Shown here piece by piece: positions 8,631-46,586 of a DNA stretch of 64,000 bases. Within the stretch, counting starts at the first letter, position 1, and each line of letters opens with the position of its first letter. The position numbers and the translations under genes were made by a program. The notes beneath the pieces are model-generated. The model was given only the letters and a program-made list of their open reading frames with translations. It did not search any database and had not been told where the DNA came from. Source of the DNA: Fundidesulfovibrio soli (GTDB lineage: Bacteria; Desulfobacterota; Desulfovibrionia; Desulfovibrionales; Desulfovibrionaceae); assembly GCF_022808695.1 (NCBI RefSeq), contig NZ_JAKZKW010000007.1, forward strand, positions 80,849-144,848. Reading direction: 5' to 3'.

Positions 8631-8658
8631 AATATAAGCCTGATTTCCGGGCTGTCCA
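8631..8658 (-). promoter_or_regulatory. Sigma-70 promoter for the 6S-like RNA
   Basis: On the minus strand, -35 TGGACA (8658-8653) and -10 TATATT (8636-8631) are separated by 16 bp. This places the transcription start near 8624. Confidence 0.6.
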
Positions 8659-8691
8659 GGGAGGCAACCTCCCTCCCCCCTGAAAAACCAC

Positions 8692-8724
8692 AAAAAAAGC
8701 CGCGACGCCCGGGGGCGTCGCGGC
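8692..8724 (-). terminator. Rho-independent terminator of the glycosyltransferase gene
   Basis: Perfect 11-bp stem GCCGCGACGCC/GGCGTCGCGGC (8699-8709 with 8714-8724). On the minus strand it is followed by seven Us (A8692-A8698 on the plus strand). It lies 25 bp past the stop of the leftward gene at 8749. Confidence 0.9.
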
Positions 8725-8748
8725 CTTGGGACAATCGGAGGCCCGGGC

Positions 8749-9909: not shown

Positions 9910-9913
9910 CCTT

Positions 9914-10978: not shown

Positions 10979-11357
10979 GGTCCAATACTCCGTTGCGGTA
11001 CCCGCTGCGGCCCCGAGTGCTCGGGGACGAGGCCGGGATTGCCGCTTTGCATGCAAATGCCGGACCGAACCGGGCATGAGCCTGCGCATGGCGACGTCCG
11101 CGGTGTCTTCCCCGGACGTTTGATATACCAAAATGGTCCTGAAATCAATGCGGACCGCCAACCAGCCTACATTACGACATTTTTGCGCCGTCCAGGACGG
11201 TGCGAGCCGCAGCGGCTTGACCCCCCGCAGCAACCTGTTAGTGTCGCGCCGCCGGCAATGACCGGCCACAGCTTGCTATCTATCGAAAATTATTTGCCAT
11301 CGTGGCGCCGCCGCCCGGAAGTGACGGTCACGGTCGCCACTGATGAGGGGAACAACG
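10979..11357. promoter_or_regulatory. Divergent intergenic region between deacetylase and 11358 gene
   Basis: About 380 bp without a gene. A possible leftward promoter for the deacetylase is TTGATT (minus strand 11148-11143) and TATATC (11127-11122) with a short 15-bp spacer. The rightward gene has a GAGGGG ribosome binding site at 11346-11350. No other structure was seen. Confidence 0.35.
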
Positions 11358-11822
11358 ATGCACCGCCCCGGATTGTACCTGGCCGCGGCCCTGACGCTCG
11401 CCGCCATCGGGCTGGCAGCCGAGGCCCACGCGGAGCCAAAACATTACCAGGTCTCACAGCGCCACTTCGAAGAGCTGGCCGACAGGTCGTCCCGTCTGGC
11501 CCGCGAGGCGGACGGCACCAGCGACATCAACGCCTGCAACTATTTCACCGCCGTGGCCATGACCTACGCCGTGCGGGCGCACGTGCTTGCCCAGCTCGCC
11601 GACCTGGCCGCGCAGCTGCGCCAGCCCGAGGACAGGGCCTTGGCCCGTCAGAAGCTGGCCGAATCTCAGGCCTACACCAGCCCCTACCTCGAAACCGACC
11701 TCAAGATGCTTGAGAACCTGAGCGCCAGCACGCGTAACTCCGGCATCCGGGAAACGGGAATGCGCCTGCTCAACGAGCTCCGAGTCTTCGCCCGCAACGT
11801 CGCGGTGCGCCCGAAGGACTAG
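11358..11822 (+). CDS. Hypothetical exported helical protein
   Basis: A 154-residue product from ATG 11358, chosen because GAGGGG lies 7 nt upstream; ATG 11343 is an alternative. The signal peptide ends AEAHA. The mature part is strongly helical and Ala/Leu/Arg-rich (VRAHVLAQLADLAAQLRQ) with one Cys. It converges with the O-antigen-ligase gene with only 3 bp between stops and no terminator hairpin. Function unknown. Confidence 0.7.
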   Translation: MHRPGLYLAAALTLAAIGLAAEAHAEPKHYQVSQRHFEELADRSSRLAREADGTSDINACNYFTAVAMTYAVRAHVLAQLADLAAQLRQPEDRALARQKLAESQAYTSPYLETDLKMLENLSASTRNSGIRETGMRLLNELRVFARNVAVRPKD

Positions 11823-11825
11823 CGC

Positions 11826-13790
11826 TCACAGGCCCGGCCCGAGGATCCACACGCCCAGGGCGCGGTGGTCCTTGATACCGGATTGCAGCGGGAAATATTG
11901 TCTGGAAACCCGGACGCCCACAAGGTCGCCCTCCTTGGCCGCTTCGGCCGGGATGGTCAGAGTGGCCTGGCGTTCGGGCGAGGCGTCCAGCACCGCCCTG
12001 GCCACCGTGCGCCCGCCTGCGAGCAGCTCAACGCTCACCGGGCTTGCGGCCAGGTCCGGGTGCGGCGTCCCGACCAGATAAGTCCAGGGTCCCGGTCCGG
12101 CAAGGGGCCAAGTCGAAGCGCCGCAACTCCAACGCACCGTGCGCCCCTCCACCAGTTCGGGGCCTGAAAGCCCCTGCACCCGGGCCGGGTCGGCCTGCGC
12201 GTAGTTCCCCAGGCCGTAGCGCGCGGCCGTGGCCGCCTGACCGGCGTTGAAGAGGTTCGCCAGCAGCGCCAGGCACACCGCCAGCGCGGCCACGTCGCGG
12301 CCCCTGCGGGCGGTGAACTCCGCCAGCCAGCCGCCCTCCTCGTCCTCCAGGCGCAGGCAGTGGGCCAGCATGCCGAAGCACAATAGCCATACGGCCGGGA
12401 TGTAGATCATCTCCTGGAAGAAGCCGAACAGGTGGAAACTGCCCAGGGCCAGCAGCGCGGCCAGGCTGGCCGGGTCGGCCCGCCGCCGGTGGCGGATCAG
12501 GCAAAGCCGTCCGGCCCTGAGCGCCAGCAGCAGCCACAGGCCCAGCCCCAGCGCGCCGCCGCCGGCGAATATCTGGATGTACAGGTTGTGGGTGGCCTCG
12601 AAGGCCTCGGCATCCGCCGGGATGGTTTGGGCCAGGGCGCTCCGTTCCACGCTCATGAGCTTGCGGTAGTGCCAGGCGTAGGTTTCGTAGCCCATGCCCG
12701 CCAGGGGAGCCTCCAGGCCAACGAGCAGGCCGCTGCGGAACACCGTGGGGCGCGGGGTGTCCAGGAAGAGCTCAAGGCGCTGGCTTATCATGGTGGCCAG
12801 GGGGAAGTTGAGCAGCGAGATCTTGGTGGCCGCCAGGAAGCCGTAGACTCCCGCCCCCACCACGCCCACCACGGCCACGCCCAGCAGCGCGCCGCGCAGC
12901 ATGCGCCGGTAGTGCAGGACGAAGAGGTCGAAGCGGCCCGTGTCGGCCACGATGAGCGCCACGGCCAGCAGCCCGGAGACCAGCCAGGCGGCGCGGGCCA
13001 TGGTCAGCACCATGGCGGCCAGGGCCAGGGCCAGGAGCCCGTAGAGGGCGGGCCTGCCGCGCCTCCTGCCCAGGAGCAGCAGGAACGGGAATCCCACGCA
13101 GACGTACTCGGCGAACCAGCCGGGATTGAGGAACAACGAGGTGAGCCGGTCGCTCATGGCAAAGGCCCGCCCCTTGGCCAGGAAGAACTCGGCCAGCCCG
13201 AAGACCAGCGCGGCCGGGATGCCCGCCGCCACGCCGCGCAGCAGGGCCGCCTGCGGCCCGGCGTCGTTCAGGCGGGAGAGCGCCCAGGCGAACAGGGCGT
13301 AGAGCGCCAGGCGGTCCATGGCCGCGAAGGCGTAGAAGCTGCTGTCCGCCACGCTGTAGAACACCAGGCGCGCCCAGGCCCGGGGGCCGAAATCGAGCCA
13401 GGCTCCCGCCAGCTCGCCCAGCGGCAGCGTCACGACGCCGCAGAGCATCACGGCGACGAAGGCCGCAGCCCAGACGCGCAGCGGCCCCCAGGAGCCGTTG
13501 GTTGCGGGCTGGGCCAGCAGGGAGAGCGTGAGGCAGCTCACCAGGAAGTGCAGCACCTGGGCGTGGGCCGAGTAGGACTGGAAGCCGAAGAAGACCAGCC
13601 CCGCACCCAGGGCCGCCGTCAGATATCCGGGCAGGCTCCGCCAGCGCAGGCAGGCCGCGCAGGCCACGGCCCAGAGGAGCCCGGCCAGGCGCACGCGCGG
13701 CCCCATGTCCCAGAGCAGGATGCCGGAAAGCGATGCGTTGGCGGCCAGGAAGGCCGCCGCCAGGCCGGTGGTGAAGGTGTTGCGTCGCAT
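11826..13790 (-). CDS. O-antigen ligase/polymerase-like membrane protein (Wzy_C)
   Basis: A 654-residue polytopic membrane protein with about a dozen hydrophobic segments, from MRRNTFTTGLAAAFLAANAS onward. The large periplasmic loop carries GMGYETYAWHYRKLM and ATHNLYIQIFAGGGALG, which match the conserved loop and following helix of WaaL/Wzy (Wzy_C) proteins. A C-terminal domain of about 130 residues lies outside the membrane. ATG 13790 is 13 bp after the stop of the upstream glycosyltransferase; an earlier start at 13853 would overlap that gene. It probably ligates or polymerises a lipid-linked glycan at the periplasmic face. Confidence 0.82.
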   Translation of the reverse strand: MRRNTFTTGLAAAFLAANASLSGILLWDMGPRVRLAGLLWAVACAACLRWRSLPGYLTAALGAGLVFFGFQSYSAHAQVLHFLVSCLTLSLLAQPATNGSWGPLRVWAAAFVAVMLCGVVTLPLGELAGAWLDFGPRAWARLVFYSVADSSFYAFAAMDRLALYALFAWALSRLNDAGPQAALLRGVAAGIPAALVFGLAEFFLAKGRAFAMSDRLTSLFLNPGWFAEYVCVGFPFLLLLGRRRGRPALYGLLALALAAMVLTMARAAWLVSGLLAVALIVADTGRFDLFVLHYRRMLRGALLGVAVVGVVGAGVYGFLAATKISLLNFPLATMISQRLELFLDTPRPTVFRSGLLVGLEAPLAGMGYETYAWHYRKLMSVERSALAQTIPADAEAFEATHNLYIQIFAGGGALGLGLWLLLALRAGRLCLIRHRRRADPASLAALLALGSFHLFGFFQEMIYIPAVWLLCFGMLAHCLRLEDEEGGWLAEFTARRGRDVAALAVCLALLANLFNAGQAATAARYGLGNYAQADPARVQGLSGPELVEGRTVRWSCGASTWPLAGPGPWTYLVGTPHPDLAASPVSVELLAGGRTVARAVLDASPERQATLTIPAEAAKEGDLVGVRVSRQYFPLQSGIKDHRALGVWILGPGL

Positions 13791-13803
13791 GGGCCAGGGG
13801 CTT

Positions 13804-14793
13804 TTACCGCAGCCCGGCCCAGAAATCGAGTACCGCCTGACGCTGCGGCCCAAGCCCGTAGGCGCGGGCCGTGCGGGCGCAGTTCCCGAGCACCGAGGCC
13901 AGCTTCGGACCGCCGGCGCGCCAGAGATTCAGGGCTTTCTCCAGGCCCAGGGCCGCGCCCATCACGTCGTTGTCGTAGGCGAAGAAGCCGTTGCCGCCCC
14001 AGGGCATCTCGTCCACGGGGCACGGGGGCGGGCAGCCGCCCTCCCCGGCCTGGCGCATGTAGTCCCAGCCGCCCAGGCCGGCGAAGCCCACGGGGATTGC
14101 CCCGCAGGCCATTGCCTCCAGCGGAGGAAGCGGGCAGCCCTCGGGGAAACCCGAAGCCAGGAAGACGTGGCTGCGGCCCAGGGCGGCGGCCACCCCGGCC
14201 TGATCCATGCCGCCGATCTCCAGCCACTCCAGGTCCGTGTGGCCGCGCGCCTGGACCACCGCGCGGACCTGCTCGGCCAGGGCCTTGTTCTTGCGGGGCA
14301 TCCAGGCCACGGTGAGCTTGCCGGGCTTGGCTTCCGGGGCGCGGAACAGCTCCAGGTCGATGCCGGGACGCAGGATGGGGGCATCCACGCCGAGCGCCTC
14401 GCGCATGAACCAGGCCACCGGGCGCGACACGGCCAGCAGACCCACGGGCAGGCTGCGCCAGTCCACCCCCGGGGGCAGGCCCGTGAACAGGTAGGCCCAG
14501 TTCTGCACGTAGGCCAGGCAGCGCGCCTTGGCCTGGAGGCCGGGCGCTAGGCCGTTGACCCAGCCCTCGGGCACCACCCACACGTCGCCCGGGCCAACGC
14601 CGCTGCCGGCCGCATCCACCTCCGGCAGTTCGGGCGCGTCGGGCCGCCAGACCGCCTTTTCGCGCAGGGCGAGGCGCACATCGTGCCCGGCTTCGTGCAG
14701 GAAGGACGCCATGCGGTAGATCACCGCCACGCCTCCTGCCGGTTTGCGGACGGGGGGGATGAAGAAGAAGGTGGTGGAGCGTTTGGCTTGCAT
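13804..14793 (-). CDS. Glycosyltransferase family 4-like
   Basis: From ATG 14793 the 329-residue product begins MQAKRSTTFFFIPPVRKPAGG, with the G-G-V-A-V acceptor loop typical of GT4. The donor half has LTVAWMPRKNKAL, VFLASGFPEGCPLPPLEAMACG (the E-x7-E motif) and GAIPVGFAGLGG. It is followed by the O-antigen-ligase-like gene, so both act in building one surface glycan. The gene diverges from the phosphofructokinase gene, with 64 bp between starts. Confidence 0.85.
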   Translation of the reverse strand: MQAKRSTTFFFIPPVRKPAGGVAVIYRMASFLHEAGHDVRLALREKAVWRPDAPELPEVDAAGSGVGPGDVWVVPEGWVNGLAPGLQAKARCLAYVQNWAYLFTGLPPGVDWRSLPVGLLAVSRPVAWFMREALGVDAPILRPGIDLELFRAPEAKPGKLTVAWMPRKNKALAEQVRAVVQARGHTDLEWLEIGGMDQAGVAAALGRSHVFLASGFPEGCPLPPLEAMACGAIPVGFAGLGGWDYMRQAGEGGCPPPCPVDEMPWGGNGFFAYDNDVMGAALGLEKALNLWRAGGPKLASVLGNCARTARAYGLGPQRQAVLDFWAGLR

Positions 14794-34597: not shown

Positions 34598-37500
34598 ATG
34601 TCTCTTGAAAGGCGAGAATTTCTCAAACTGAGCGCCGCCACCGTGGCCTTCACCGCCTTCGGCGGTCTGGGCCTGGACCTGACCACGGTCCAGGCGGCGG
34701 CCGATCTGTCCAAGCTCAAGGGCAGCAAGCAGACCACCTCGGTGTGCTGCTACTGCTCCGTGGGCTGCGGCCTGATCGTTGCCACCGGTTTGGAAGGCAA
34801 AGGCCGCTCCGTGAACGTGGAAGGCGATCCGGACCATCCCATCAACGAAGGTTCCCTGTGTCCCAAGGGCGCCTCCATCTGGCAGCTCACCGAGAACGAC
34901 AAGCGCATCACCAAGGTGCTCTACCGCGCCCCCAACTCGGACAAGTGGCAGGTGAAGAGCTACGACTGGGCTCTGAGCGAGATCGCCAAGCGCGTGAAGA
35001 AGGTGCGCGATGCGTCCTTCATCGCCAAGGATGCCAAAGGGCAGACCGTCAACCGCCTGGAAGCCATCGCCTCCGTAGGCTCGGCCGCCATGGACAACGA
35101 GGAGTGCTGGATCTACCAGCAGATGCTCCGTGCCTTGGGCCTTACATACATCGAACATCAGGCCCGTATCTGACACAGCGCAACTGTAGCGGCTCTGGCA
35201 GAGTCGTTCGGACGCGGTGCGATGACCAACCACTGGATCGACCTCAAGAACAGTGATTGTATTTTTGTAATCGGCTCCAATCCTGCCGAAAACCACCCCA
35301 TTTCCTTCAAGTGGATCATGCGGGCCAAGGACGCGGGCGGCAAGCTCATCTGCGTCGACCCCCGCTTCACCAAGACGGCCAGCAAGGCGGACTTCTACGC
35401 CCCGATCCGTTCCGGGTCGGACATCGCCTTCTTCGGCGGCCTCATCAGCTACATCCTGGCCAACGACCTCATGTTCAAGGACTATGTGGTCAACTACACC
35501 AACGCCTCCTTCATCGTAGGCGACGCCTACGACTTCAAGGACGGCATGTTCTCGGGCTACAACGCCGAGAAGAAGGCCTACGACAAGTCCAAGTGGGCCT
35601 TCGCCAAGGACGAGGCGGGGATCGTCAAGAAGGACCCCTCGCTGCAGAACCCCCGCTGCGTCTTCCAGCTGATGAAGAAGCACTACGAGCGCTACACGCT
35701 CAAGACCGTCTCCGACATCACCGGCTGCCCCCTGGACAAGCTGGAGCAGTGCTACAAGCTCTACGGCGAGACCGGCAAGCCCGAGAAGACCGGCACCATG
35801 CTCTACGCCATGGGCCAGACCCAGCACACCGTGGGCGTGCAGAACATCCGGGCCATGTCCATGGTCCAGCTGCTGCTTGGCAACATCGGCGTGGCGGGCG
35901 GCGGCATCAACGCCCTGCGCGGCGAAGCCAACGTCCAGGGCTCCACGGACCAGGGCCTGCTCTTCCACATCCTGCCCGGCTACGTGCCCACGCCCGCGGC
36001 CTCCATGCAGGAGCTCAAGACCTACAACGAGAAGAACACCCCCGTCAGCAAGGACCCCAAGTCCATCAACTGGTGGGGCAACAGGCCCAAGTACCTGGCC
36101 AGCTACCTCAAGGCGATCTACCCCAAGCAGAAGCCTGAGGATGCCTACAAGTGGCTGCCCAAGCTCGAGGACGGCAAGGACTACTCCTGGCTGACCCTGT
36201 TCGACGAGATGTACAAAGGCGCCTTCAAGGGCTTCTTCGCCTGGGGCCAGAACCCCGCCGCCTCCACCGCCAACTGCGGCAAGGTGCGAGAGGCCATGAC
36301 CAAGCTGGACTGGATGGTCACGGTGAACATGTTCGACACCGAGACCGCCTCCTTCTGGAAGGGCCCGGGCATGAACCCCAAGAAGATCAAGACCGAGGTC
36401 TTCTTCCTGCCCTGCTGCGTCTCCATCGAGAAGGAAGGCTCCATCTCCAACTCCGGCCGCTGGATGCAGTGGCGCTACCCCGGCCCCGCTCCGCTGGGCG
36501 GCACCAAGCCCGACGGCGACCTGATCTACGAACTCTTCGAGAAGATCAGGGGCCTCTACGCCAAGGACAAGAAGGCCGTCTTCCCCGATCCCATCACCAA
36601 CCTGAACTGGGACGTCGCCACCAATCACGTCTTCGACCCCCACAAGGTGGCCAAGCTGATCAACGGCTACTTCCTGTCCGAGAAGACCATCGGCGACAAG
36701 ACCTACAAGGCCGGCGACCCGGTGCCCAGCTTCGCCCTGCTCCAGGACGACGGCTCCACCTGCTCCGGCAACTGGATCTACGCCGGTTCCTACACCGACA
36801 AGAACATGGCCGCCCGCCGCGACAAGACCCAGACCCCCATGCAGGAGAAGATCGGCCTGTATCCGGGATGGACCTGGTGCTGGCCGGTGAACCGCCGCAT
36901 CATCTACAACCGCGCCTCCGTGGACCCGCAGGGCAAGCCCTACCAGCCCACCAAGCCCGTCATCGAATGGAAGGACGGCAAGTGGGTGGGCGACGTGCCC
37001 GACGGCCCCTGGCCGCCGATGGCCGACGAGAAGGGCAAGTACGCCTTCATCATGACCACCGAAGGCCATGCCCAGCTCTACGGCCCCGGCCGCAACGACG
37101 GCCCCTTCCCCGAGCACTACGAGCCCATGGAGTGCCCCATCGCGGAGCATCCGTTCTCAAAAGTGCGCACCAACCCCACCGCCCTGACCTTCAAGGGCGA
37201 CAAGGACGTCCACGCTTCCTGCGACCCGCGCTTCCCGTTCATCTGCTCCACCTACCGGGTCACGGAGCACTGGCAGACGGGCGTCATGACCCGTTGGACC
37301 CCCTGGCTGCTGGAAGCCGAACCCCAGATGTTCGTGGAGATGAGCCCCGAGTTGGCCACCCTGCGCGGCATCAAGGGCGGCGACAAGTGCACCGTGGAAT
37401 CGGCGCGCGGCAGCCTCTGGGCCATCGCCATCGTCACGGAGCGCATGCGCCCCATGCAGGTCATGGGTCAAACCGTACATATGGTCGGCATCCCCTGGCA

Positions 37501-37624
37501 CTTCGGTTGGGTCTACCCCAAGGACGGCGGCGACTCCGCCAACCTGCTCACCCCCTCGGTGGGCGACCCGAACACCGGCATACCCGAGACCAAGGCTTTC
37601 ATGGTCAACGTGAAAAAGGCTTAG
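34598..37624 (+). CDS. fdhA: Formate dehydrogenase alpha subunit, selenocysteine-containing
   Basis: The reading frame continues through an in-frame TGA at 35171-35173 decoded as selenocysteine (Sec192), giving 1008 residues, the usual FdhA/FdnG length. Around it the protein reads EHQARI-U-HSATVAALAESFGRG, the standard Mo/W active-site sequence. The Tat signal is RREFLK (5-10). The N-terminal [4Fe-4S] cluster is C50-x2-C53-x3-C57 plus the Cys in GSLCPKG. The enzyme oxidises formate (or reduces CO2) at a tungsten or molybdenum bis-MGD site in the periplasm, with FdhB as partner. A decoder not aware of Sec would split it into two ORFs (34598-35173 and 35222-37624). Confidence 0.96.
35171..35206 (+). 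promoter_or_regulatory. Sec codon and SECIS-like hairpin in fdhA
   Basis: TGA 35171-35173 is followed 16 nt later by a 7-bp hairpin (35190-35196 with 35200-35206, one G-U pair) and a loop GGC. Position and size match bacterial SECIS elements that bind SelB. Confidence 0.8.
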
Positions 37625-37638
37625 GGAGGTAATCGACC

Positions 37639-38364
37639 ATGTCAGGCAAGACCTTCTTCGTCGATCTCTCCCGCTGCACCGCCTGCCGCGGATGCCAGAT
37701 CGCCTGCAAACAGTGGAAACAGCTCCCCGCGGAGCAGACCAAGAACACGGGTTCCCACCAGAACCCGCCCGACATGTCCTTCGTGACGCTCAAAGTGGTG
37801 CGCATGAAGGAAGTGGGCTCGCGCGACGACTTCAAGTGGCTCTTCCTGCCGGACCAGTGCCGGCACTGCGTCGAGCCGCCCTGCAAGGACGCCGCCGACT
37901 CCGTCATCAAGGACGCCATCACCCACGACAAGGAAACCGGGGCCGTGATCTTCACCGAGAAGACCAAGGGCCTGCCCTTCGACGTGGTGCGCGGCGCCTG
38001 CCCCTACGACATCCCCCGGCAGGACCCTGCCAGCAAGGTGATGTCCAAGTGCGACATGTGCAACGACCGCGTGAAGGCCGGGATGCTGCCCGCCTGCGTC
38101 AAGACCTGTCCCACCGGAGCCATGAACTTCGGTGAGCGCGACGAGATGCTAGCCATGGGCAAGAAGCGCTTCGAGGCCCTGAAGCAGACCAACCCCAAGG
38201 CCGTCCTTGTGGATTGGGAGCAGGTCCGCGTTGTGTTCCTGACCGAACACGAACCCCGGCTCTACCACGCCACGCTCATGGCCGACGCGGACGGCGCCGG
38301 ACCCGTCACCCGCTTCGCGGCCCTGGACGCCGTGCTGGGCCTGCGCAACCAGGCTCAGGGCTGA
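37639..38364 (+). CDS. fdhB: Formate dehydrogenase beta subunit (4 x [4Fe-4S] ferredoxin)
   Basis: A 241-residue protein with four cysteine clusters: CTACRGCQIACKQ, CRHCVEPPC plus a later single Cys, CDMCNDRVKAG and CVKTCPTGAM. GACPYDIPRQ is typical of FdnH/FdhB. It has no membrane anchor and no signal of its own, so it is probably exported with the Tat-tagged FdhA. No cytochrome b (gamma) gene follows, so electrons likely pass to a periplasmic cytochrome c3, as in two-subunit Desulfovibrio enzymes. It lies 14 bp after fdhA with AGGGAGG upstream. Confidence 0.95.
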   Translation: MSGKTFFVDLSRCTACRGCQIACKQWKQLPAEQTKNTGSHQNPPDMSFVTLKVVRMKEVGSRDDFKWLFLPDQCRHCVEPPCKDAADSVIKDAITHDKETGAVIFTEKTKGLPFDVVRGACPYDIPRQDPASKVMSKCDMCNDRVKAGMLPACVKTCPTGAMNFGERDEMLAMGKKRFEALKQTNPKAVLVDWEQVRVVFLTEHEPRLYHATLMADADGAGPVTRFAALDAVLGLRNQAQG

Positions 38365-38696
38365 TGCCCGGAAGCCGATGACGGCATGACCGCCGGGGAC
38401 ACCCCACTCGTTCCCGGCGATGCAAACAAAACGCCGGTTTCCCCGGCCGCGCCCGACGGGGCGCGGCCGGGGCTTCACCCCTCCCACAGGGGCGATGCCG
38501 GCGTTGTTTTACAGAAGGCGGCGTGCCCGCCCTGCGGCGGCTTCCGGCAGGATTGGACCTCCCAACCGGTTTGCGCCAGCAGGCGGTCACGCCGCCTCGC
38601 TTTCTCTGTGCCGCTGTATCAAAACACGGAGAAATCCCAGTGGATGCTTCAAGGCCAATCCGCTATTGTCAACAAAACCACCGGGACGGTGACTCC
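38365..38696 (+). other. Gene-free region after fdhAB with strong GC hairpin
   Basis: This 332-bp region has no gene. A perfect 14-bp stem CCCCGGCCGCGCCC/GGGCGCGGCCGGGG (38441-38454 with 38459-38472) probably ends fdhAB transcription, though no T run follows. A second small GC repeat lies near 38507-38545. No promoter for the next operon could be identified with confidence. Confidence 0.6.
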
Positions 38697-39371
38697 ATGA
38701 AATTTTTCCGCAGCACACTCGCCATGGCCGCCCTGACCCTTTTCGCGGCCCTGGCCCTTATTTCGTCTCTGGCCGGCCACGACGCGGCCTGGGCCGCCAA
38801 CGCCTCGCAATCCCCCGAGATGCGCCCCCTGCCCGTGGGCCAGGCCTTCCCCGACCTGGTGCTCCAGGGGCCGTTCACGCCCCAGGAGGCGACACAACTG
38901 GGCATCAAGCCCGGCGCCAAGAGCTTCCGCCTGGCCGACATCAAGGCCGACACAGTGATCCTGGTGGTTTTCTCCATGTACTGCCCCTTCTGCCAGAAGG
39001 AGGGCCCGGCCCTGGTGGAGACAAACACCCTCATCCGTGAGCGCGGCCTGGCGGGCAGCGTGGCGATGGTTGGCCTGGGGGCCGGCAATTCCGAATTCGA
39101 GGTCGCCATCTACCGGGACAAATTCAAGGTGGACTTCCCCCTCTTCCATGACAAGGACTTCGCCGCCTACAAGGCCATGGGCCAGGTGGGCACCCCCTTC
39201 TATTACATCCTCTCGCGCGGGCCCAACGGGTTCACCATCGTGGACGAGTCGCTGGGCTGCATGACCTCTCCCCAGGCCTTCCTGGATTCCGTCCAAGCCA
39301 AGACCGGGGCCAAGCCCTCACCCGTGCAGGAGGCCAAGCCCGACGCCAAGGCCAAGGGGAAGAAGAAATGA
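38697..39371 (+). CDS. Exported thioredoxin-like protein (TlpA/ResA type)
   Basis: A 224-residue protein. Signal peptide or anchor (residues 8-32) ends with AWAAN. The thioredoxin-like domain has the redox pair in YCPFCQKE (C96, C99) at the start of the first helix and GTPFYYILS carrying the cis-Pro of the fold. The C-terminal tail is Lys/Ala-rich. It faces the periplasm and should reduce or shuffle thiols. Its stop overlaps the start of the peroxiredoxin gene as ATGA, the first of four such overlaps in this operon. Confidence 0.85.
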   Translation: MKFFRSTLAMAALTLFAALALISSLAGHDAAWAANASQSPEMRPLPVGQAFPDLVLQGPFTPQEATQLGIKPGAKSFRLADIKADTVILVVFSMYCPFCQKEGPALVETNTLIRERGLAGSVAMVGLGAGNSEFEVAIYRDKFKVDFPLFHDKDFAAYKAMGQVGTPFYYILSRGPNGFTIVDESLGCMTSPQAFLDSVQAKTGAKPSPVQEAKPDAKAKGKKK

Positions 39372-39991
39372 TCCCGAACGCCCTGAATCCCTCAAAGATG
39401 TGCCGCGCTGGCCTGCTCTTGGCCATCCTCCTGGCCGCTTTGCTTGCGCCCGCCCCTGGGTTTTGCCAGTCTCCGGTGCCGCCCGAGCTGATCTACAACC
39501 CCGGTACGCTCAAACCCGTGGACAGCACGCTGCGCGTGGCCGTGGGGGACAAGGCTCCGGACTTCTCCCTGCCCACCATTGCAGGTTCCCGTGTGAGCCT
39601 GTCCCAATACGCGGGCAAGAAGAACGTGCTGCTCACCTTCGTTCCGGCGGCCTGGACGCCCATCTGCTCGGGGCAGTGGCCCGGCTACAACCTGGCCCGG
39701 GAGATCTTCGAAAAGCACGACACGGTGCTCATCGGCATCACCTGCGACAACGTCCCCACCCTGCACGCCTGGGTCAAGGAGATGGGGGGGCTGTGGTTCC
39801 CCGTGGCCTCCGACTTCTGGCCGCACGGTGCCGTGTCGGCGGCTTACGGTGTGCTGCGCCCCGAGGGCGTGTCCGAGCGGGCGCTGTTCCTCATCGACAA
39901 GAAGGGCGTCATCCGCTTCATCGACGTGCACGACATCAACACCCGCCCGGATCTCGGCACCCTGGCCGAGGAGCTGGTCAAGCTGCAATGA
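39368..39991 (+). CDS. Exported peroxiredoxin (AhpC/TSA type)
   Basis: A 207-residue protein with a signal peptide (residues 12-33) and a peroxiredoxin domain. VGDKAPDFSLPTIAGSRVSL is followed by the active-site segment P93-A-A-W-T97-P-I-C100, the canonical PxxxTxxC with peroxidatic Cys100. Other Cys residues (C33 near the signal end, C125) might resolve. It probably reduces peroxide in the periplasm, with the neighbouring TlpA-like protein as a plausible reductant. Start and stop both overlap neighbours (ATGA). Confidence 0.85.
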   Translation: MIPNALNPSKMCRAGLLLAILLAALLAPAPGFCQSPVPPELIYNPGTLKPVDSTLRVAVGDKAPDFSLPTIAGSRVSLSQYAGKKNVLLTFVPAAWTPICSGQWPGYNLAREIFEKHDTVLIGITCDNVPTLHAWVKEMGGLWFPVASDFWPHGAVSAAYGVLRPEGVSERALFLIDKKGVIRFIDVHDINTRPDLGTLAEELVKLQ

Positions 39992-41229
39992 ACAGCCGTC
40001 CGCTCAAAGCCCGGCTGGCCGCCCTGGCGGCGTCTCTCATCACGCTGGCACTGCTTGCCGCCTGCGAGCCGCCCCCTCCCAAGGAGGCCGACACCGGGCG
40101 CATCGGCGTCACCGCGGGCGAGATCCGCATCGGCTCCAGCCTGCCCCTCTCCGGCCACGCCTCGCACCTCGGTCAGGAGACCCTGCGCGGGGCCACGGCC
40201 TACATCAACCACGTGAACACCCAGGGCGGCGTGCACGGCCGCAGGATCACGCTCATCACCCGCGACGACGGCTACGACCCACCCCGCTGCGTGGCCAACA
40301 CCCAGATGCTCATCGTGGAGGACCAGGTCTTCGCCCTGAGCTGCTACGTGGGCACTCCCACCACGACCAAAATCCTGCCCATGCTGGTGGGTGCGCGCAT
40401 CCCCTTGGTGGGGGCCTTCACCGGAGCCAACGACCTGCGCAACCCCTTCCAGCGCTATGTGGTCAACGTGCGGCCCTCCTACTACCAGGAGACCGCCGCC
40501 GCCGTGGAGCATATCGTCGGAGACCTGGGCCTCAAGCGCATCGGCGTGTTCTACCAGTTCGACGCCTACGGTTTCGACGGACTCAAGGGCACCGAGTTCG
40601 CCCTGCGCAGCTACGGCATGGCCCCGGTGGCCCGGGGTTCCTACGCGCGCGGCACCCTGGACGTGGAGGAGGGCCTGACCAGAATCACCGAGAGCGACGC
40701 GCAGGCTGTGGTGATCATCGGCTCGGCAGCGCCCTCGGCCAAGTTCATCAAGCTGGCCAGGGAGAAGAACCCCGACCTGGTGTTCTACGCCGTGTCCTTC
40801 GTGGGCGCGGAGGAGATCGCCCGCATGCTCGGCCCGGACGAGCGGGCCAAGGTGCTCGTCTCCCAGGTGATGCCGCCGCCCGACCTGCCGGAGACGCGCG
40901 GCCTGCTGAGCGGCGTGAAGGAGTACGACGAACTGCTGCGCGCCTCCTATCCCGGGCACAGCCCCACCTCCGTGGGCCTGGAGGGCTTCATCAACGCCAA
41001 GGTGCTGGTGGAGGGGCTGCGCCGCGCCGGGCCGGACCTGACCCGCGAGCGCTTCATCGACGCCATCGAGGACATCCGCGACTTCTCCCTGGGGCTGGCC
41101 AACACCTTGACCTACGGCCCTGGCGACCACCGGGGCCTGCAGCGCGTCTACTTCACCAAACTGGAAGAAGGCCGCTTCGTCCTGGTCAACGACTGGAGCA
41201 AACCCTTCGCCCCAAGCGCCTGCAAGTGA
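39988..41229 (+). CDS. Lipoprotein substrate-binding protein (LivK-like) linked to a kinase
   Basis: A 413-residue protein. The signal ends with a lipobox LLAAC (Cys26), so it is a lipoprotein of the outer or inner membrane. The fold is a Peripla_BP_6 type: IGSSLPLSGHASHLGQETLRG begins lobe 1, and VGARIPLVGAFTGANDLR and IGVFYQFDAYGFDG are typical. There are no permease or ATPase genes nearby. Its stop overlaps the kinase start as GTGA. It therefore likely serves as a ligand receptor for the sensor kinase rather than a transporter. Confidence 0.85.
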   Translation: MNSRPLKARLAALAASLITLALLAACEPPPPKEADTGRIGVTAGEIRIGSSLPLSGHASHLGQETLRGATAYINHVNTQGGVHGRRITLITRDDGYDPPRCVANTQMLIVEDQVFALSCYVGTPTTTKILPMLVGARIPLVGAFTGANDLRNPFQRYVVNVRPSYYQETAAAVEHIVGDLGLKRIGVFYQFDAYGFDGLKGTEFALRSYGMAPVARGSYARGTLDVEEGLTRITESDAQAVVIIGSAAPSAKFIKLAREKNPDLVFYAVSFVGAEEIARMLGPDERAKVLVSQVMPPPDLPETRGLLSGVKEYDELLRASYPGHSPTSVGLEGFINAKVLVEGLRRAGPDLTRERFIDAIEDIRDFSLGLANTLTYGPGDHRGLQRVYFTKLEEGRFVLVNDWSKPFAPSACK

Positions 41230-43247
41230 GCGCCTCCACGCAGACTTCCGGCCGGGCGCAGGCCATGCTCAACAGGGTGCGCACGCTCAGCCTGCGCAAC
41301 AAGATCTTCCTGGCCACGGTGGGCGTGGTGCTGCTCATCAGCGGGGCCATCGCCCTGCTGGCGCGCGGCATCCTGGTGGGCACCCTGGACCGCGAGCTGG
41401 AGCTGCGCGGCGTGGCCATCGCGCAGTCCATCGCGGAGCGCGGCGGCGGCTACATCCTGGACAAACGCCCCGAGGAGTTGGTGGCGCTGCTGTTCGACGT
41501 CTCCCAGCTGGGCGACCGCAAGGCCCTGGTGGCCTACAGCTTCGTCATGGACATAGACGGCAAGCTCCTGGCCCACACCTTCGTGCGCCCCTTCCCCACC
41601 GAGCTGCTGGAGGTGGTGGCCCCGGCCGACAGCCAGGAGACCCTGGTGCGCCCCGTTCGCTTCGAGAACTCGGACGCGGTGGACATCTCCGTGCCCATCC
41701 AGGAGGGCATCTACACCCTGGGCCGGGCCCACGTGGGCCTGCGCCAGAGCCACATCGACGCCCTGGTGGCCAAGCTGCGCCTGACTTTTTTGGGCTTCAT
41801 CTCCCTGGTGGTTGTCATTATCTTCCTGATCGCGCTGGTGCTCTCGGGCTACGTGGTGGAGCCCCTGCGCAAGCTGACCAGCGCGGCGGAGATCATCAGC
41901 CGGGGCAGGCTGGACCAGCCCCTGGATCTCGGCGGCGCCCCCCTGCAGCCCGGCGACTGCCCGGCCTACGCCGACACGGACCTGCCCTGCTGGCACCTGG
42001 ACGAGATGGCCCCCGGCGAGGACATGCCCCCCCGCACCTGCAACCCCTGCAAGTTCTACCGCAAGCGCAAGGGCGACGAGGTGGTGCAGCTGGCAGACGC
42101 CTTCGCCAACATGGTCTGGTCCATCCGGCTTTACCGGCACAGGCTGCGCGAATCCGAGGAGCGCTACCGCCCCCTGTTCCAGGCCAACCCGGACCCCTTC
42201 CTGGTGTTGGACGTGGCCACCCGCTACTTCCTTGACGCCAACCCCCGCGCCCAGGAGCTCTACGGCTACTCCCTGGCCCAGCTCCAGGACATGACCATAG
42301 GCTCCATCGAGCCCCTGGGCACCCCGCAGGGCGTGCAGCGCTTCATCACGGAGGGCACCTCCGGCGACCACGTGCTCTACACCAAGGTGGGCCACATCAC
42401 CCGCTCGGGCAAGACCATCTACGTGAACATCCACGCCACCATGGCCCCCTACCGCGAGCGCGTGGTGGTGATCTTCTCGGCCACCGACGTCACCGACCTG
42501 GTGGAAAAGGACGCCCAGCTCATCCAGGCCAGCAAGATGAAGACCCTGGGCGAAATGAGCGCGGGCATGGCTCACGAGCTCAACCAGCCGCTCAACGCCA
42601 TCAAGCTCGGCAGCGACTTCCTCAAGCTGGCCGCGGGCATGGACATGGACCTGCCCAAGGCCAAATTCCAGCAGGTCTCAGACGAGATCAGCGCCCAGGT
42701 GGACCGCGCCGCTGCCATCATCTCCCACCTGCGGGAGTTCGGACGCCAGTCCGACCTGATGCCGGACAAAGTGGACATCCGCCAGCCCATCAAGGGCGTG
42801 TTCGCCATCATCGGCCAGCAGCTGGCACTGCAGAATATCGGCGTGCAGCTTGAGCTGGCGGAGGGTCTTCCGCTGGTGAGGGCCCACATCAACCGGCTGG
42901 AACAGGTGTTTTTCAACCTTGTGGCCAATGCCCGCGATGCGATACAAGCGCTGAAACAGGGGGGCGGGACGATCCTGATACGATCCTTCATGGAAAACGG
43001 CCAGTTGGTCGTTTCCGTCACGGACACCGGCTGCGGCATTCCCCCCAAGGACGTCCCCAAGATTTTCGAGCCTTTCTTCACTTCCAAGCGGGCAGGCGAG
43101 GGCATGGGCCTGGGCTTGGCGATATCCTACGGCATCATCAAGGACTACGGCGGGGATATCCAGGTGGAGAGCGAAGTGGGCAGGGGCACCACGTTCAGGC
43201 TGCTTTTCCCTCCGGCGGCCCCCCCGCTCAACGGTGAGGTTTTATGA
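41226..43247 (+). CDS. PAS-containing sensor histidine kinase with Cys4 insert in HAMP
   Basis: A 673-residue kinase from GTG 41226 (overlapping the previous TGA); ATG 41265 is the alternative start. TM1 is about residues 27-48, a periplasmic domain about 49-185, TM2 about 187-211. HAMP helix 1 (VEPLRKLTSAAEII) and helix 2 (GDEVVQLADAFANM) are split by an insert with four Cys: C245, C255, C272, C275. A PAS domain (about 310-425), HisKA with H450 (MSAGMAHELNQPLN) and HATPase (NLVANARDA, DTGCGIP, GMGLGLAIS) follow. The Cys4 insert could bind a metal or cluster or act as a thiol switch. Its partner regulator is encoded next. Confidence 0.92.
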   Translation: MSASTQTSGRAQAMLNRVRTLSLRNKIFLATVGVVLLISGAIALLARGILVGTLDRELELRGVAIAQSIAERGGGYILDKRPEELVALLFDVSQLGDRKALVAYSFVMDIDGKLLAHTFVRPFPTELLEVVAPADSQETLVRPVRFENSDAVDISVPIQEGIYTLGRAHVGLRQSHIDALVAKLRLTFLGFISLVVVIIFLIALVLSGYVVEPLRKLTSAAEIISRGRLDQPLDLGGAPLQPGDCPAYADTDLPCWHLDEMAPGEDMPPRTCNPCKFYRKRKGDEVVQLADAFANMVWSIRLYRHRLRESEERYRPLFQANPDPFLVLDVATRYFLDANPRAQELYGYSLAQLQDMTIGSIEPLGTPQGVQRFITEGTSGDHVLYTKVGHITRSGKTIYVNIHATMAPYRERVVVIFSATDVTDLVEKDAQLIQASKMKTLGEMSAGMAHELNQPLNAIKLGSDFLKLAAGMDMDLPKAKFQQVSDEISAQVDRAAAIISHLREFGRQSDLMPDKVDIRQPIKGVFAIIGQQLALQNIGVQLELAEGLPLVRAHINRLEQVFFNLVANARDAIQALKQGGGTILIRSFMENGQLVVSVTDTGCGIPPKDVPKIFEPFFTSKRAGEGMGLGLAISYGIIKDYGGDIQVESEVGRGTTFRLLFPPAAPPLNGEVL

Positions 43248-43954
43248 CGCGCGTTCTGGTGATCGACGACGAAAAACCCACCCTGGCCATGTTCGAGCTG
43301 CTGCTCCAGGCCATGGGCTACGAACCCTCCGTGGCCGAGTCGGGCGAGCAGGGCCTGGAAATCTTCGCCCGGGGCGACTTCCCCATCGTGCTCACGGACA
43401 TCAAGATGCCGGGCATCGACGGGCTGGAGGTGCTCTCGCGCATCAAGGCCATGCGCCCCGAGACGGAGATCATCGTCATCACCGGCCACGGCGACGTTGA
43501 GCTGGCACTGGCCGCGCTCAACCTGCGGGCCACCGACTTCATAGACAAACCCATCTCCCAATCGGCGCTGACCACGGCCCTGCGCCGCGCCAGCGAACGC
43601 CTGAGCCGCACCGCCAGCGCCGCGGCCCCGGCCTTCCTGCGTATCGAGGGGGAGCTTGCCCTGCTGGAAATAAGCGGGGCCATATCAGGCGATATGGACG
43701 ACATCGCCGCCCGACTGGCCGACGCCCCCCAGCTGTGCAAACTGCTGGTGACGGTGGGGGAGTACGCATCGCTCAACGGGGCGGCCATATCCGGGCTGAC
43801 CTCCATCCTGGAATCGTTCAAGCTGCGCCACTGCAGCGCGGCCATCGCCTGCAAGCCGCTGAATTTCCGCCGTGTGTTCGAGGCCGCGGGCATCTCAGCC
43901 CTGGTGCAGATCTACGAGACCACCGAGCAGGCCCGGCAGGCGATGGCGCTGTAG
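43244..43954 (+). CDS. Response regulator with receiver and STAS-like output domain
   Basis: A 236-residue protein. The receiver domain is complete: D8-D9, acceptor D52 in VLTDIKMPG, T80 and K102. The rest (about 130-236) has no HTH but fits a STAS/anti-anti-sigma fold: LLEISGAISGDMDDIAARL, then SLNGAAISGLTSILE and FRRVFEAAGISALVQIYET. STAS domains usually bind anti-sigma or kinase proteins, so output may be protein-protein partner switching rather than DNA binding. It is the last gene of the operon begun at 38697 and overlaps the kinase by ATGA. Confidence 0.85.
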   Translation: MTRVLVIDDEKPTLAMFELLLQAMGYEPSVAESGEQGLEIFARGDFPIVLTDIKMPGIDGLEVLSRIKAMRPETEIIVITGHGDVELALAALNLRATDFIDKPISQSALTTALRRASERLSRTASAAAPAFLRIEGELALLEISGAISGDMDDIAARLADAPQLCKLLVTVGEYASLNGAAISGLTSILESFKLRHCSAAIACKPLNFRRVFEAAGISALVQIYETTEQARQAMAL

Positions 43955-44386
43955 AAGCACAGGGCTGTTCGCCATACCCGCCCCGTGCTCGTGTAACTCC
44001 TGAAATGCCGATTACTCCATAGGTTTGCATCCGCCTCTGGCCCGAGAGCCAGGCTCCGCCCGGCCGCGCCGTGCACCCCCTTCTCCCGCCAGTCCGCCCC
44101 CGCGCCCGCAACCAGGGTGGGCAAAAATGACATGCCACCCTTTCTTTTTTCAGAACGACTCCAAACCACTTACTTTTTTCCTGTTGACACACCCTGAATT
44201 CCCATATACGGCCGCCTAAATGCCATCACATATATCGGGCCTCGTTCATGCGGGGGTAAGGCCCGGTATATCGAACCTACTTGCGGGGCGCGTTTGAGGT
44301 TATCCGATGCGGTGCCTTGCGGGATGAAACGGCCGGGCAACGGCGCCCGCCGATTGTGGTAACCTCTTGCAGGAGCATTTGCGAGT
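43955..44386 (+). promoter_or_regulatory. Leader region of the RRM gene with promoter and conserved-looking hairpin
   Basis: This 432-bp region has no gene. A T-rich tract (44145-44180) leads to TTGACA (44184-44189) and TATACG (44205-44210), spacing 15. A 12-bp stem-loop follows (44231-44242 with 44259-44270, one G-U) with a 16-nt loop containing GGGGG. The leader is about 170 nt long, unusual for an 89-residue gene. The ribosome binding site AGGAG is at 44371-44375, 11 nt from the start. Confidence 0.55.
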
Positions 44387-44656
44387 ATGGAGACGAACAT
44401 CTACGTCGGGAATCTGCCTTTCAGCGCCACCGAAGATCAGGTTCGCCAGCTGTTTGAGACTTACGGACAGGTCACGTCCGTGAAACTCATCAACGACCGC
44501 GAAACAGGCCGCCCCCGCGGTTTCGGCTTCGTGGAAATGGATGGCGACGGCGCCAAGCAGGCCATCGAGGCCCTCAATGGCTCCGACTACGGCGGCCGCA
44601 CCATGAAGGTCAACGAAGCCCGCCCCCGCGAGCGCCGTCCGGCCGGACGCTGGTAA
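44387..44656 (+). CDS. RRM-type RNA-binding protein
   Basis: An 89-residue single RRM. RNP2 is IYVGNL (5-10) and RNP1 is RGFGFVEM (44-51), both complete with the aromatic residues that stack on RNA. The C-terminal tail is Arg-rich (RPRERRPAGRW). Such small RRM proteins in bacteria are cold- or stress-induced RNA chaperones. The long structured leader upstream could be its own target. It is followed by a strong terminator and is monocistronic. Confidence 0.95.
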   Translation: METNIYVGNLPFSATEDQVRQLFETYGQVTSVKLINDRETGRPRGFGFVEMDGDGAKQAIEALNGSDYGGRTMKVNEARPRERRPAGRW

Positions 44657-44739: not shown

Positions 44740-45555
44740 TCACTCCTCCGGCCCGGGCATGAAGGCCAGGGCGAGGCGTGTCACCAGGTCGGCCAGGTCC
44801 TGCCCGCGATGGTTCCAGCGGAACTCCAATTCCTTGAGATAATACGGGAACTTTTCAGGCGAAACGCCCTGCAACCGGGCCAGGCGCTCCATGAGGAAGC
44901 CCCAGAAGGGGTTGGCGTCCCGCAGGTCCAGCCCGCCGCCGCGCCCCCGCAGCGCGGTGGAGACCCACTGCGGCCCCCCGCAGCACACCAGCCCCAGGTA
45001 GCCGCGCACGGGGCCGGTGTAGACCACTGAGCCCACCCGGGCGGTCCTGAGCCGGAAGTTGCTCTTGTAGAGGGTCAGGTCCGCGGCCTCAACGTCGGGC
45101 AGAAGGTCCACGAAGACCCATCGCCCGTGCTCCATCACTCCGAACACGGGCGGTGTTTCCTCGGCGTCGCGCTCGGCCAGGCTCCGCCTGATCTGGCGCG
45201 CGTCCGTAGCCTGGGAGAGGATGGCCTGGCGCAGGGCGTCCATGGCCTTGTAGGCGGTGTTGTAGGAGATATCGAGCAGGGCGGCGCTCTGCTTCACCGG
45301 GGTCTCCCCGGCGAAGAGCTCGGCCATGCGCAGCCACTGCGCGGGCCTGAGCCCCCCGGCGCCCATGAAGCGACCGGTCAGCTCGTGGAAGGTGTAGCCG
45401 CAGCCGGGGCAGCGCAGCCGCCCGGAGCCCAGCCGGTATGTCTTCCCGCTACGGCAGCGGGGGCAGCCCCATACGCCCGCCTGGCGGCACAGGGAGACTA
45501 TATGCTCCCTGGCCGCCTGATCGTCCGGAAGGACGGGCTGCGGAAGGCTGTCCAT
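44740..45555 (-). CDS. IS1595/ISXO2-like transposase-derived protein lacking DDE residues
   Basis: A 271-residue protein. Its N-terminal zinc ribbon (C31, C34, C49, C52) and helix-turn-helix (QSAALLDISYNTAYKAMDAL) match IS1595-family transposases. So does the C-terminus (FWGFLMERLARLQGVS, then YLKELEFRWNHR). The catalytic acids appear lost: the segment normally holding the first Asp (VDESYxG) is absent before PPVFGVM, the usual HSDGWRGY reads YTGPVRGY (Gly181), and the Glu of IExFW is replaced (DANPFWGF). No terminal inverted repeats are seen. It lies 26 bp downstream of fdhE on the same strand, which suggests domestication as a DNA-binding protein. Confidence 0.8.
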   Translation of the reverse strand: MDSLPQPVLPDDQAAREHIVSLCRQAGVWGCPRCRSGKTYRLGSGRLRCPGCGYTFHELTGRFMGAGGLRPAQWLRMAELFAGETPVKQSAALLDISYNTAYKAMDALRQAILSQATDARQIRRSLAERDAEETPPVFGVMEHGRWVFVDLLPDVEAADLTLYKSNFRLRTARVGSVVYTGPVRGYLGLVCCGGPQWVSTALRGRGGGLDLRDANPFWGFLMERLARLQGVSPEKFPYYLKELEFRWNHRGQDLADLVTRLALAFMPGPEE

Positions 45556-45581: not shown

Positions 45582-46460
45582 CTAGAACCCCCAGGCCGAG
45601 GCCGTGGGCCGGGTGTAGCCCTTGCGCATGGCCAGGATGTCCAGGGTCAGGGATTCCAGGTCGTCCAAGGCGGGCAGGCTGGGGCGGTCCATCTCGCGGA
45701 AGTCCGTGGTCTTGATGTAGCCCTTGCAGCTCTCGCAAACGTCCACCCGGTAACCGGGCTCCTCGTCGGCGGTGAAGAAGGGCAGCTTGGCCGCGTCGCG
45801 CTCCTGGCAGTAGGCGCACTGCAGCCTGAAGGTGCGGTATTCGGCCCGGCAGAAGGAGCAGCAGTGCACGCGCACGCCCTCCTTGCCGCGCAGCGAGGAG
45901 TGGAACGCCAGGCTGCCGCAGACGGGGCAGGTGGCCTGGTCCCAGTTTCTGTCCTGGGGCAGGGCCAGGGCGAGCACCGCGGCCCGCGCCATCAGGGAGG
46001 GCGTCATGCTGGACTGGGCCAGGAAGGCCAGGGCGCGCGGGGCCTGGGGCGTGCGCGCGGCGAAATCCTTGAAGAAGTCCAGGTCGCCGGCGAGGAAGGC
46101 GGCGTGGGCCGCGCGCATCAGCTCGTCACCTTCGGCGCGGATCACGTCGGCCGCCTGGGCCATGGGGCCGCCCATCTCCGCCAGGAGGTCCGTGAAGCGC
46201 TTGAACAGGTCCTCGGCCTGGGCCGCATCGTAAGGGAAATTGTCGCGGGCCAGCAGGGGCTTGCCCTGGATCACCTGGTCCACGCTGGAGAGCTCCACAG
46301 CGGGCATCTCCTGCGCGGCGCAGGCGGCCCGGGCTTCGTTCTGGATACGGTACACCGCCTCCACCAGCCCGAGCAGTTGGGCCGGGATGTGCTCCTTGCC
46401 GCGCATGGCGGCGAATTTGCGTTTGGCCAGTTTCTCTTCCTGCTCGATGTCGTTGAACAT
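45582..46460 (-). CDS. fdhE: Formate dehydrogenase accessory protein FdhE
   Basis: From ATG 46460 (AGGGGTG upstream) a 292-residue protein. The C-terminal rubredoxin-like half has four CxxC motifs: CPVCG, CSFC, CAYC and CESC (near residues 188-250), the FdhE hallmark that holds iron. FdhE is needed for maturation of Tat-exported formate dehydrogenases, fitting fdhAB 8 kb away. The transposase-derived gene follows in the same direction. An earlier in-frame start at 46514 lacks a ribosome binding site. Confidence 0.93.
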   Translation of the reverse strand: MFNDIEQEEKLAKRKFAAMRGKEHIPAQLLGLVEAVYRIQNEARAACAAQEMPAVELSSVDQVIQGKPLLARDNFPYDAAQAEDLFKRFTDLLAEMGGPMAQAADVIRAEGDELMRAAHAAFLAGDLDFFKDFAARTPQAPRALAFLAQSSMTPSLMARAAVLALALPQDRNWDQATCPVCGSLAFHSSLRGKEGVRVHCCSFCRAEYRTFRLQCAYCQERDAAKLPFFTADEEPGYRVDVCESCKGYIKTTDFREMDRPSLPALDDLESLTLDILAMRKGYTRPTASAWGF

Positions 46461-46586
46461 GTTCACCCCTGTTTCGGTATTGCGCGGCAAGCTGCCACCG
46501 CATGCGGAAGACACTTCATACTGCCACAGGACGGCGAACGCGTCCAGCGAGGCAGGCTTGCTGCCGACCTGACACCAGCACAGGCC

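Follow-up and report, generated by a model that had tools for sequence, protein, structure and literature searches.

A seven-gene locus in Fundidesulfovibrio soli that most likely controls a periplasmic formate dehydrogenase

The window, the whole 64,000-nucleotide stretch of Fundidesulfovibrio soli DNA analysed here, contains what is most likely a formate dehydrogenase control locus. Five overlapping genes for a TlpA-like protein, a peroxiredoxin (Prx), a periplasmic binding protein (PBP), a histidine kinase (HK) and a response regulator (RR) make up the downstream end of a formate dehydrogenase locus of seven genes. The upstream genes fdhA and fdhB, overlooked in an earlier reading made from the letters of the DNA (the sequence-only reading), give the gene set its likely purpose. 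Our genome comparisons show that a three-gene unit, PBP-HK-RR, and a two-gene unit, TlpA-Prx, follow FdhAB from genome to genome and often in place. The reading we favour, that the locus serves to control and maintain FdhAB, has, in our judgement, an even chance of being right. The features of the locus are as follows.

34598 to 37624, forward strand: fdhA, Sec-containing periplasmic formate dehydrogenase catalytic subunit (TGA read as U)
37133 to 37222, forward strand: the FdhA switch cysteines C846 (37133-37135) and C875 (37220-37222), by alignment to 6sdr
37639 to 38364, forward strand: fdhB, 4Fe-4S electron-transfer subunit (Fer4_11, E=1e-38)
38697 to 39371, forward strand: tlpA, TlpA-like exported thioredoxin-fold protein with YCPFC (ORF, domain match, relatives)
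39368 to 39991, forward strand: prx, exported peroxiredoxin with PAAWTPIC (AhpC/TSA domain; Rv2238c nearest solved)
39988 to 41229, forward strand: pbp, type I periplasmic binding protein lipoprotein (Peripla_BP_6, alignment)
41226 to 43247, forward strand: hk, sensor histidine kinase (sCache_3_2, HAMP, Cys4 insert, PAS, HisKA, HATPase_c)
41958 to 42050, forward strand: membrane-proximal Cys4 insert of the kinase (C245, C255, C272, C275; kinase alignment)
43244 to 43954, forward strand: rr, response regulator with a receiver and a C-terminal STAS domain without the phospho-serine (Pfam, alignment, AlphaFold2)
44740 to 45555, reverse strand: IS1595-like Zn-ribbon/DDE protein, a possible locus member (recurrence at such loci)
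45582 to 46514, reverse strand: fdhE, formate dehydrogenase accessory protein (FdhE_C, E=6e-8)

The five genes lie on the forward strand, and their 4-bp stop/start overlaps (ATGA at 39368, ATGA at 39988, GTGA at 41226 and ATGA at 43244) are exactly those given in the sequence-only reading. Upstream, fdhAB (34598-38364) is on the same strand, separated from tlpA by a gap of 332 bp. The genome is 4.0 Mb in size and lies near Fundidesulfovibrio agrisoli (locus L104; PBP 93% identical). The order fdhA-fdhB-tlpA-prx-pbp-hk-rr is found in the window and in three other genomes of its genus, and a fifth genome (G137) carries an extra kinase-regulator pair between fdhB and tlpA. All four overlaps are present in the nearest relative, F. 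agrisoli (L064), too; in the three remaining genomes of the genus some junctions lack an overlap, by the start candidates seen. A scan of 38200-44500 found no sigma-70-like promoter site, and in the same interval there are 6 terminator-like sites compared to 3.4 expected. After the operon, at 44387-44656 on the forward strand, there is a gene for a small RRM-type RNA-binding protein that is 100% identical in F. agrisoli.

By sequence, the enzyme belongs with D. vulgaris FdhAB among the periplasmic formate dehydrogenases. The Sec TGA at 35171-35173 is codon 192 of fdhA, the protein matches the FdhA chains of 1h0h and 6sdr with a phmmer E value of 0, and its N-terminus is Tat-type, as judged by eye from the motif RREFLK. 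In the alignment to 6sdr, C846 and C875 are the equivalents of D. vulgaris C845 and C872. In the available portions of two papers (PMC11323313, PMC13397495), D. vulgaris FdhAB is described as controlled by the C845-C872 disulfide; oxidation protects the enzyme from O2 and leaves it with almost no activity, and reduction makes it active. These same portions name no in-cell partner of the disulfide, and the word thioredoxin does not occur in them.

The switch cysteines are common among the FdhA proteins found at these loci. Of the 49 unique FdhA rows at core loci, counting the window, 43 have both. By comparison, the pair is found in 3 of 20 FdhA copies from elsewhere, which were hand-picked and are mostly at or below 60% identity; there is no TlpA or Prx gene beside these 20 copies in the 9-14 kb fetched. 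Within core loci, the presence of Prx in the genome is a weak, suggestive predictor of the cysteines: of the order's core loci, 25 have an FdhA row, and the pair is found in 17 of the 19 with Prx and 3 of the 6 without (p 0.07). Two genomes (G142, G076) have Prx and a linked FdhA lacking the pair, and three (G009, G106, G122) have the pair and no Prx.

The comparison thus divides the locus into PBP-HK-RR, TlpA-Prx and FdhAB, and we counted these three modules in 61 genomes of the order. FdhA of at least 62% identity is found in 32/32 kinase-positive compared to 5/29 kinase-negative genomes (p 2e-12), where the identity cut was chosen after seeing the list, one kinase-negative genome (G008) sits at 62%, and the 29 include four with weak kinase matches (E 2e-12 to 1e-26). 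Likewise, Prx is present in 29/37 FdhAB-positive and 1/24 FdhAB-negative genomes (p 5e-9); because species are not independent, the p-values here and below overstate the significance. All three modules are present in 26 of the 61 genomes and none in 23. Six genomes, some of them fragmented assemblies, have FdhAB and the kinase and no Prx, and one (G050) has Prx without FdhAB and without a strong kinase match. In four others (G053, G039, G052 and G030, the last 90% complete), all three modules are absent though their genera otherwise carry them, a pattern that looks like repeated joint loss.

The modules are also close together on the chromosome. FdhA with more than 50% identity lies in the same 17.5-kb stretch at 27 of the 39 core loci of the order compared to 2 of 20 control stretches (p 2e-5), and a TlpA of any type at 27/39 compared to 0/20 (p 1e-7); the control stretches came from 20 of the same genomes and were hand-placed at offsets of ~300-500 kb. 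One control stretch (L205) has a weak Prx-family match (33%). FdhA is not found nearby at 12 of the 39 core loci, and 6 lack both FdhA and TlpA, in gene maps made by tblastn with the window proteins and a few relatives, which miss divergent neighbours.

The sequence-only reading took the tight coupling of the five genes to mean one function and proposed conservation of gene order as a check. Parts of the set bear this out: PBP, HK and RR are all present, as adjacent genes, in 39 of 40 order loci, hand-picked from kinase matches to spread over genera, the exception being a distant kinase paralogue (L099), and 50 of the 70 unique core loci that span 17 kb or more have a TlpA of some type. The five genes as a whole are not one co-conserved unit. 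Their contiguous order was seen only in the window, in four other sampled genomes of the genus (L064-L067) and in L144, and we therefore discarded the idea that the five genes are one functional unit conserved order-wide. The 80 named loci include four that duplicate loci of the order sample, and pooled counts are de-duplicated unless marked. At L144, on a Desulfobacterales contig, TlpA-Prx-PBP-HK-RR (~8650-13970) is arranged as in the window, with fdhE, fdhB and fdhA on the other strand; the TlpA match region there has no CxxC.

TlpA-Prx is, by these comparisons, a separable two-gene unit that tracks FdhAB. TlpA is a redoxin with a CxxC (YCPFC), a hydrophobic N-terminus and an export signal judged by eye; its Pfam scores are modestly above the cut-offs, and it has no solved relative at E<=1e-5. 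Prx belongs to the AhpC/TSA family, with the PxxxTxxC active site present as PAAWTPIC and an export signal again judged by eye, and its best solved relative is Rv2238c (E 2.6e-27), which we take to be AhpE. At E<=1e-40, Prx gives a single match in each of 30 of the 61 order genomes. A TlpA match lies no more than 300 bp away in 28 of these 30, and in the other two the compared TlpA match is on a different contig. At core loci, TlpA is immediately upstream of Prx for 18 of 19 unique Prx genes, 12 of them in the order fdhA-fdhB-tlpA-prx. The pair is also present in 3 genomes that are FdhAB-positive and have no strong kinase match.

The active-site motifs are largely kept (duplicates included): PxxxTxxC in 21/21 Prx matches above 50% identity and CxxC in 27/28 matches to TlpA and 45/45 to a second type, TlpA2. 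CxxC is found in 0/6 matches to TlpA3, a third type that lies upstream of the PBP (L079 10606-11100 and five named loci, one of the six a duplicate) and may be redox-inactive. No relative of Prx was found in viral contigs.

Domain matches support the identities that the sequence-only reading gave to the five proteins, including those of the sensor. The PBP has a Peripla_BP_6 domain and, by eye, a LAAC lipobox; its nearest solved structures, 4kv7 and 3lop, left the ligand unsettled. In Pfam, the kinase has sCache_3_2, HAMP, PAS, HisKA and HATPase_c domains, and the sCache_3_2 class often binds carboxylates. The Cys4 insert that had been picked out in the kinase is a conserved feature, with CCCC in 27 of 28 aligned kinases and no insert in the remaining row (alignment A3, made from the window kinase and 27 of the 39 at core loci). 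As it comes after HAMP, inferred topology has the insert facing the cytoplasm, apart from TlpA and Prx.

Using the N-terminal part of the kinase as a query, we found matches at E<=1e-10 in 130 of 199 order genomes, weak paralogues included, and in 52 genomes of a phylum draw of 297. Strong matches in the draw (E<1e-46) came from the window's own genome, three of its family, and G285, G377, G336 and G308; the remaining matches are weaker or partial. In this 297-genome draw, the PBP-HK-RR system is sparse outside the order, as judged from the matches. Relatives are also present on contigs labelled Desulfobacterales, Syntrophobacteraceae and Desulfarculales. For several matches in the phylum draw, the aligned part is mainly HAMP and the Cys4 insert (kinase residues 165-308, window 41718-42149) with 31-41% identity, and the insert may be a wider sensor-kinase module.

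The regulator gave REC and a STAS match below the Pfam cut-off in a first scan. The STAS domain was then found at E<=0.01 in 43/43 aligned regulators (best 6.5e-15; alignment A4, made from the window regulator and 42 of the 50 extracted at named loci), in agreement with the proposed REC-STAS identity. An AlphaFold2 model of the regulator (mean pLDDT 92) has, by eye, a STAS-like topology after the receiver; in a Foldseek search, each of the 50 rows listed is a receiver domain or a protein containing one, with no STAS structure among them. The start of STAS helix 2, which we take to be the phosphorylation site by the SpoIIAA/RsbV motif, is Gly in 41 of the 43 regulators and Arg in 2, never Ser or Thr, in a register that rests on the model and on that motif. 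Three residues before this position there is Ser in 35/43 regulators and Thr in 3/43.

The sequence-only reading had proposed output by partner switching. The RsbV/SpoIIAA type of partner switching, by serine phosphorylation of the STAS domain, is contradicted by the Gly or Arg at this site in all 43 regulators, and we rejected it. Among those neighbours that were scanned, no RsbW-like kinase or PP2C phosphatase was recognised. The regulator has no recognised DNA-binding domain, and it therefore probably acts by protein contact through the STAS domain and not by RsbV-type serine phosphorylation.

Many relatives have a second arrangement, in which the regulator is followed by TlpA2, a GAF-like/rhodanese protein (RHD) and MauE. 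The rhodanese-domain protein (L095 11971-13734, L079 3850-5643 and relatives) sits between TlpA2 and MauE; RHD is present in 34 and MauE in 33 of the 70 unique core loci spanning 17 kb or more. The window itself has no MauE match, and the window's genome has only a weak partial match to the rhodanese-domain protein. Foldseek of a model of this protein matches tandem-GAF proteins, and it has a probable membrane helix by eye. Its rhodanese loop has Gly where the catalytic Cys is expected. We considered this protein as a kinase or phosphatase partner for STAS; Pfam finds rhodanese only, with no kinase or phosphatase domain. Because TlpA-Prx and TlpA2-RHD-MauE both adjoin the sensor, thiol-type genes are tied to it in two arrangements, which, at the level of gene neighbourhood, points towards a functional link without demonstrating it.

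The IS1595-like protein (44740-45555, reverse strand) is encoded just downstream of fdhE, and the genome has one full copy and a weak partial match. Its relatives are found at 22/40 order loci, 22/80 named loci (duplicates included) and 5/20 other FdhA loci, compared to 1/20 control stretches, that one carrying fdhAB. We suggest that it may be a DNA-binding protein that has been domesticated at formate dehydrogenase loci.

If the locus is a control and maintenance unit, its parts would work as follows. TlpA and the AhpE-like Prx would act in the periplasm beside FdhAB; Prx would probably remove peroxide, and TlpA would exchange thiols with Prx and possibly with FdhA C846/C875. FdhAB would be locked while oxidant is present and unlocked afterwards, and the thiol pair may thus set the FdhA disulfide. 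The lipoprotein would bind a small periplasmic solute and, together with the kinase sCache domain, set kinase activity, with the Cys4 insert perhaps adding a metal or redox input. The STAS domain would bind a protein partner, and it is probably by this binding that the three-component system tunes FdhAB.

A more specific version, which we put forward tentatively and consider doubtful as a whole, is that TlpA-Prx is a relay opening and closing C846-C875, with the lipoprotein-kinase-STAS system reading the same periplasmic state and retuning FdhAB non-transcriptionally. If true, this would be a redox control circuit dedicated to a single CO2-reducing enzyme and retained in several sulfate-reducer families. 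Neighbouring genes can, of course, be co-regulated without acting on each other.

It is also possible, though on balance unlikely, that the locus senses formate or carboxylates only: the PBP and sCache domain would signal a small carboxylate, either formate or some other acid from fermentation, with the regulator adjusting FdhAB. The sCache_3_2 match in the kinase and the 32/32 co-occurrence of kinase and FdhAB fit this explanation. The thiol proteins would then be bystanders packed in by operon fusion in the genus, a proposal that we find just as doubtful; the occurrence of TlpA-Prx in the 3 FdhAB-positive genomes without a strong kinase match is consistent with it. In contrast, TlpA2 is also found behind the regulator, together with RHD (34/70) and MauE (33/70), and the two arrangements of thiol-type genes beside the sensor count against bystanders.

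There is a small probability that TlpA-Prx serves FdhAB biogenesis, handling disulfides or assembling the cofactor site during export, and not the enzyme's redox switch. TlpA and MauE are families linked to the maturation of periplasmic enzymes, and fdhE is nearby. However, the six genomes with FdhAB and kinase (some fragmented assemblies) show no Prx, so that FdhAB can probably be made without it, and neither TlpA nor Prx is present in the 9-14 kb fetched for the 20 other FdhA copies. Quite improbable, too, is a general periplasmic redox or peroxide sensor, along the lines of the sequence-only reading, triggered by oxidised TlpA or Prx or by the kinase Cys4 and with a response not aimed at FdhAB: the Cys4 is kept in 27/28 kinases and the five-gene order occurs in the genus and L144, but Prx tracks FdhAB (29/37 vs 1/24), including in the 3 genomes without a strong kinase match, and the Cys4 is cytoplasmic by inferred topology, away from TlpA and Prx.

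A control unit for FdhAB would matter because FdhAB is a studied CO2-reducing catalyst whose O2 tolerance depends on a disulfide. The locus offers TlpA and Prx as candidates for setting this disulfide, together with a candidate dedicated sensor system. Each part is of a known kind. Our search for this gene set in the open-access literature found no description of the combination or of its close association with FdhAB, and a search so limited cannot show the set to be undescribed.

Three-component systems with a PBP include TorT-TorS-TorR, AioX-AioS-AioR and LuxP-LuxQ. As in these systems, a binding protein, a membrane histidine kinase and a regulator are encoded together in the window. Unlike in these systems, the binding protein is a LivK-type lipoprotein, the kinase has its own sCache domain and a Cys4 insert, the REC-STAS regulator has no recognised DNA-binding domain, and the genes follow a formate dehydrogenase. 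RsbV/SpoIIAA proteins work by STAS partner switching. The regulator shares the STAS domain, here at its C-terminus, but has Gly or Arg at the phospho-serine position in 43/43 cases, and the one neighbour that was modelled as a candidate partner, absent from the window, looks like a tandem GAF plus rhodanese protein and has no Pfam kinase or phosphatase domain. MauD/MauE is a maturation pair for methylamine dehydrogenase; many relatives similarly have a TlpA-like protein and MauE near the sensor, although here these are found with a kinase and often a formate dehydrogenase, and MauE has no match in the window. The nearest solved sequences to the window Prx are those of AhpE (Rv2238c); in contrast to AhpE, the window Prx is exported, by a signal judged by eye, and is paired with TlpA. 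Finally, the enzyme is of the same family as D. vulgaris FdhAB (phmmer E=0) and has both switch cysteines. Unlike D. vulgaris FdhAB as described in the available portions of PMC11323313 and PMC13397495, fdhAB in the window has the genes for an exported TlpA-Prx pair and for a three-component system behind it.
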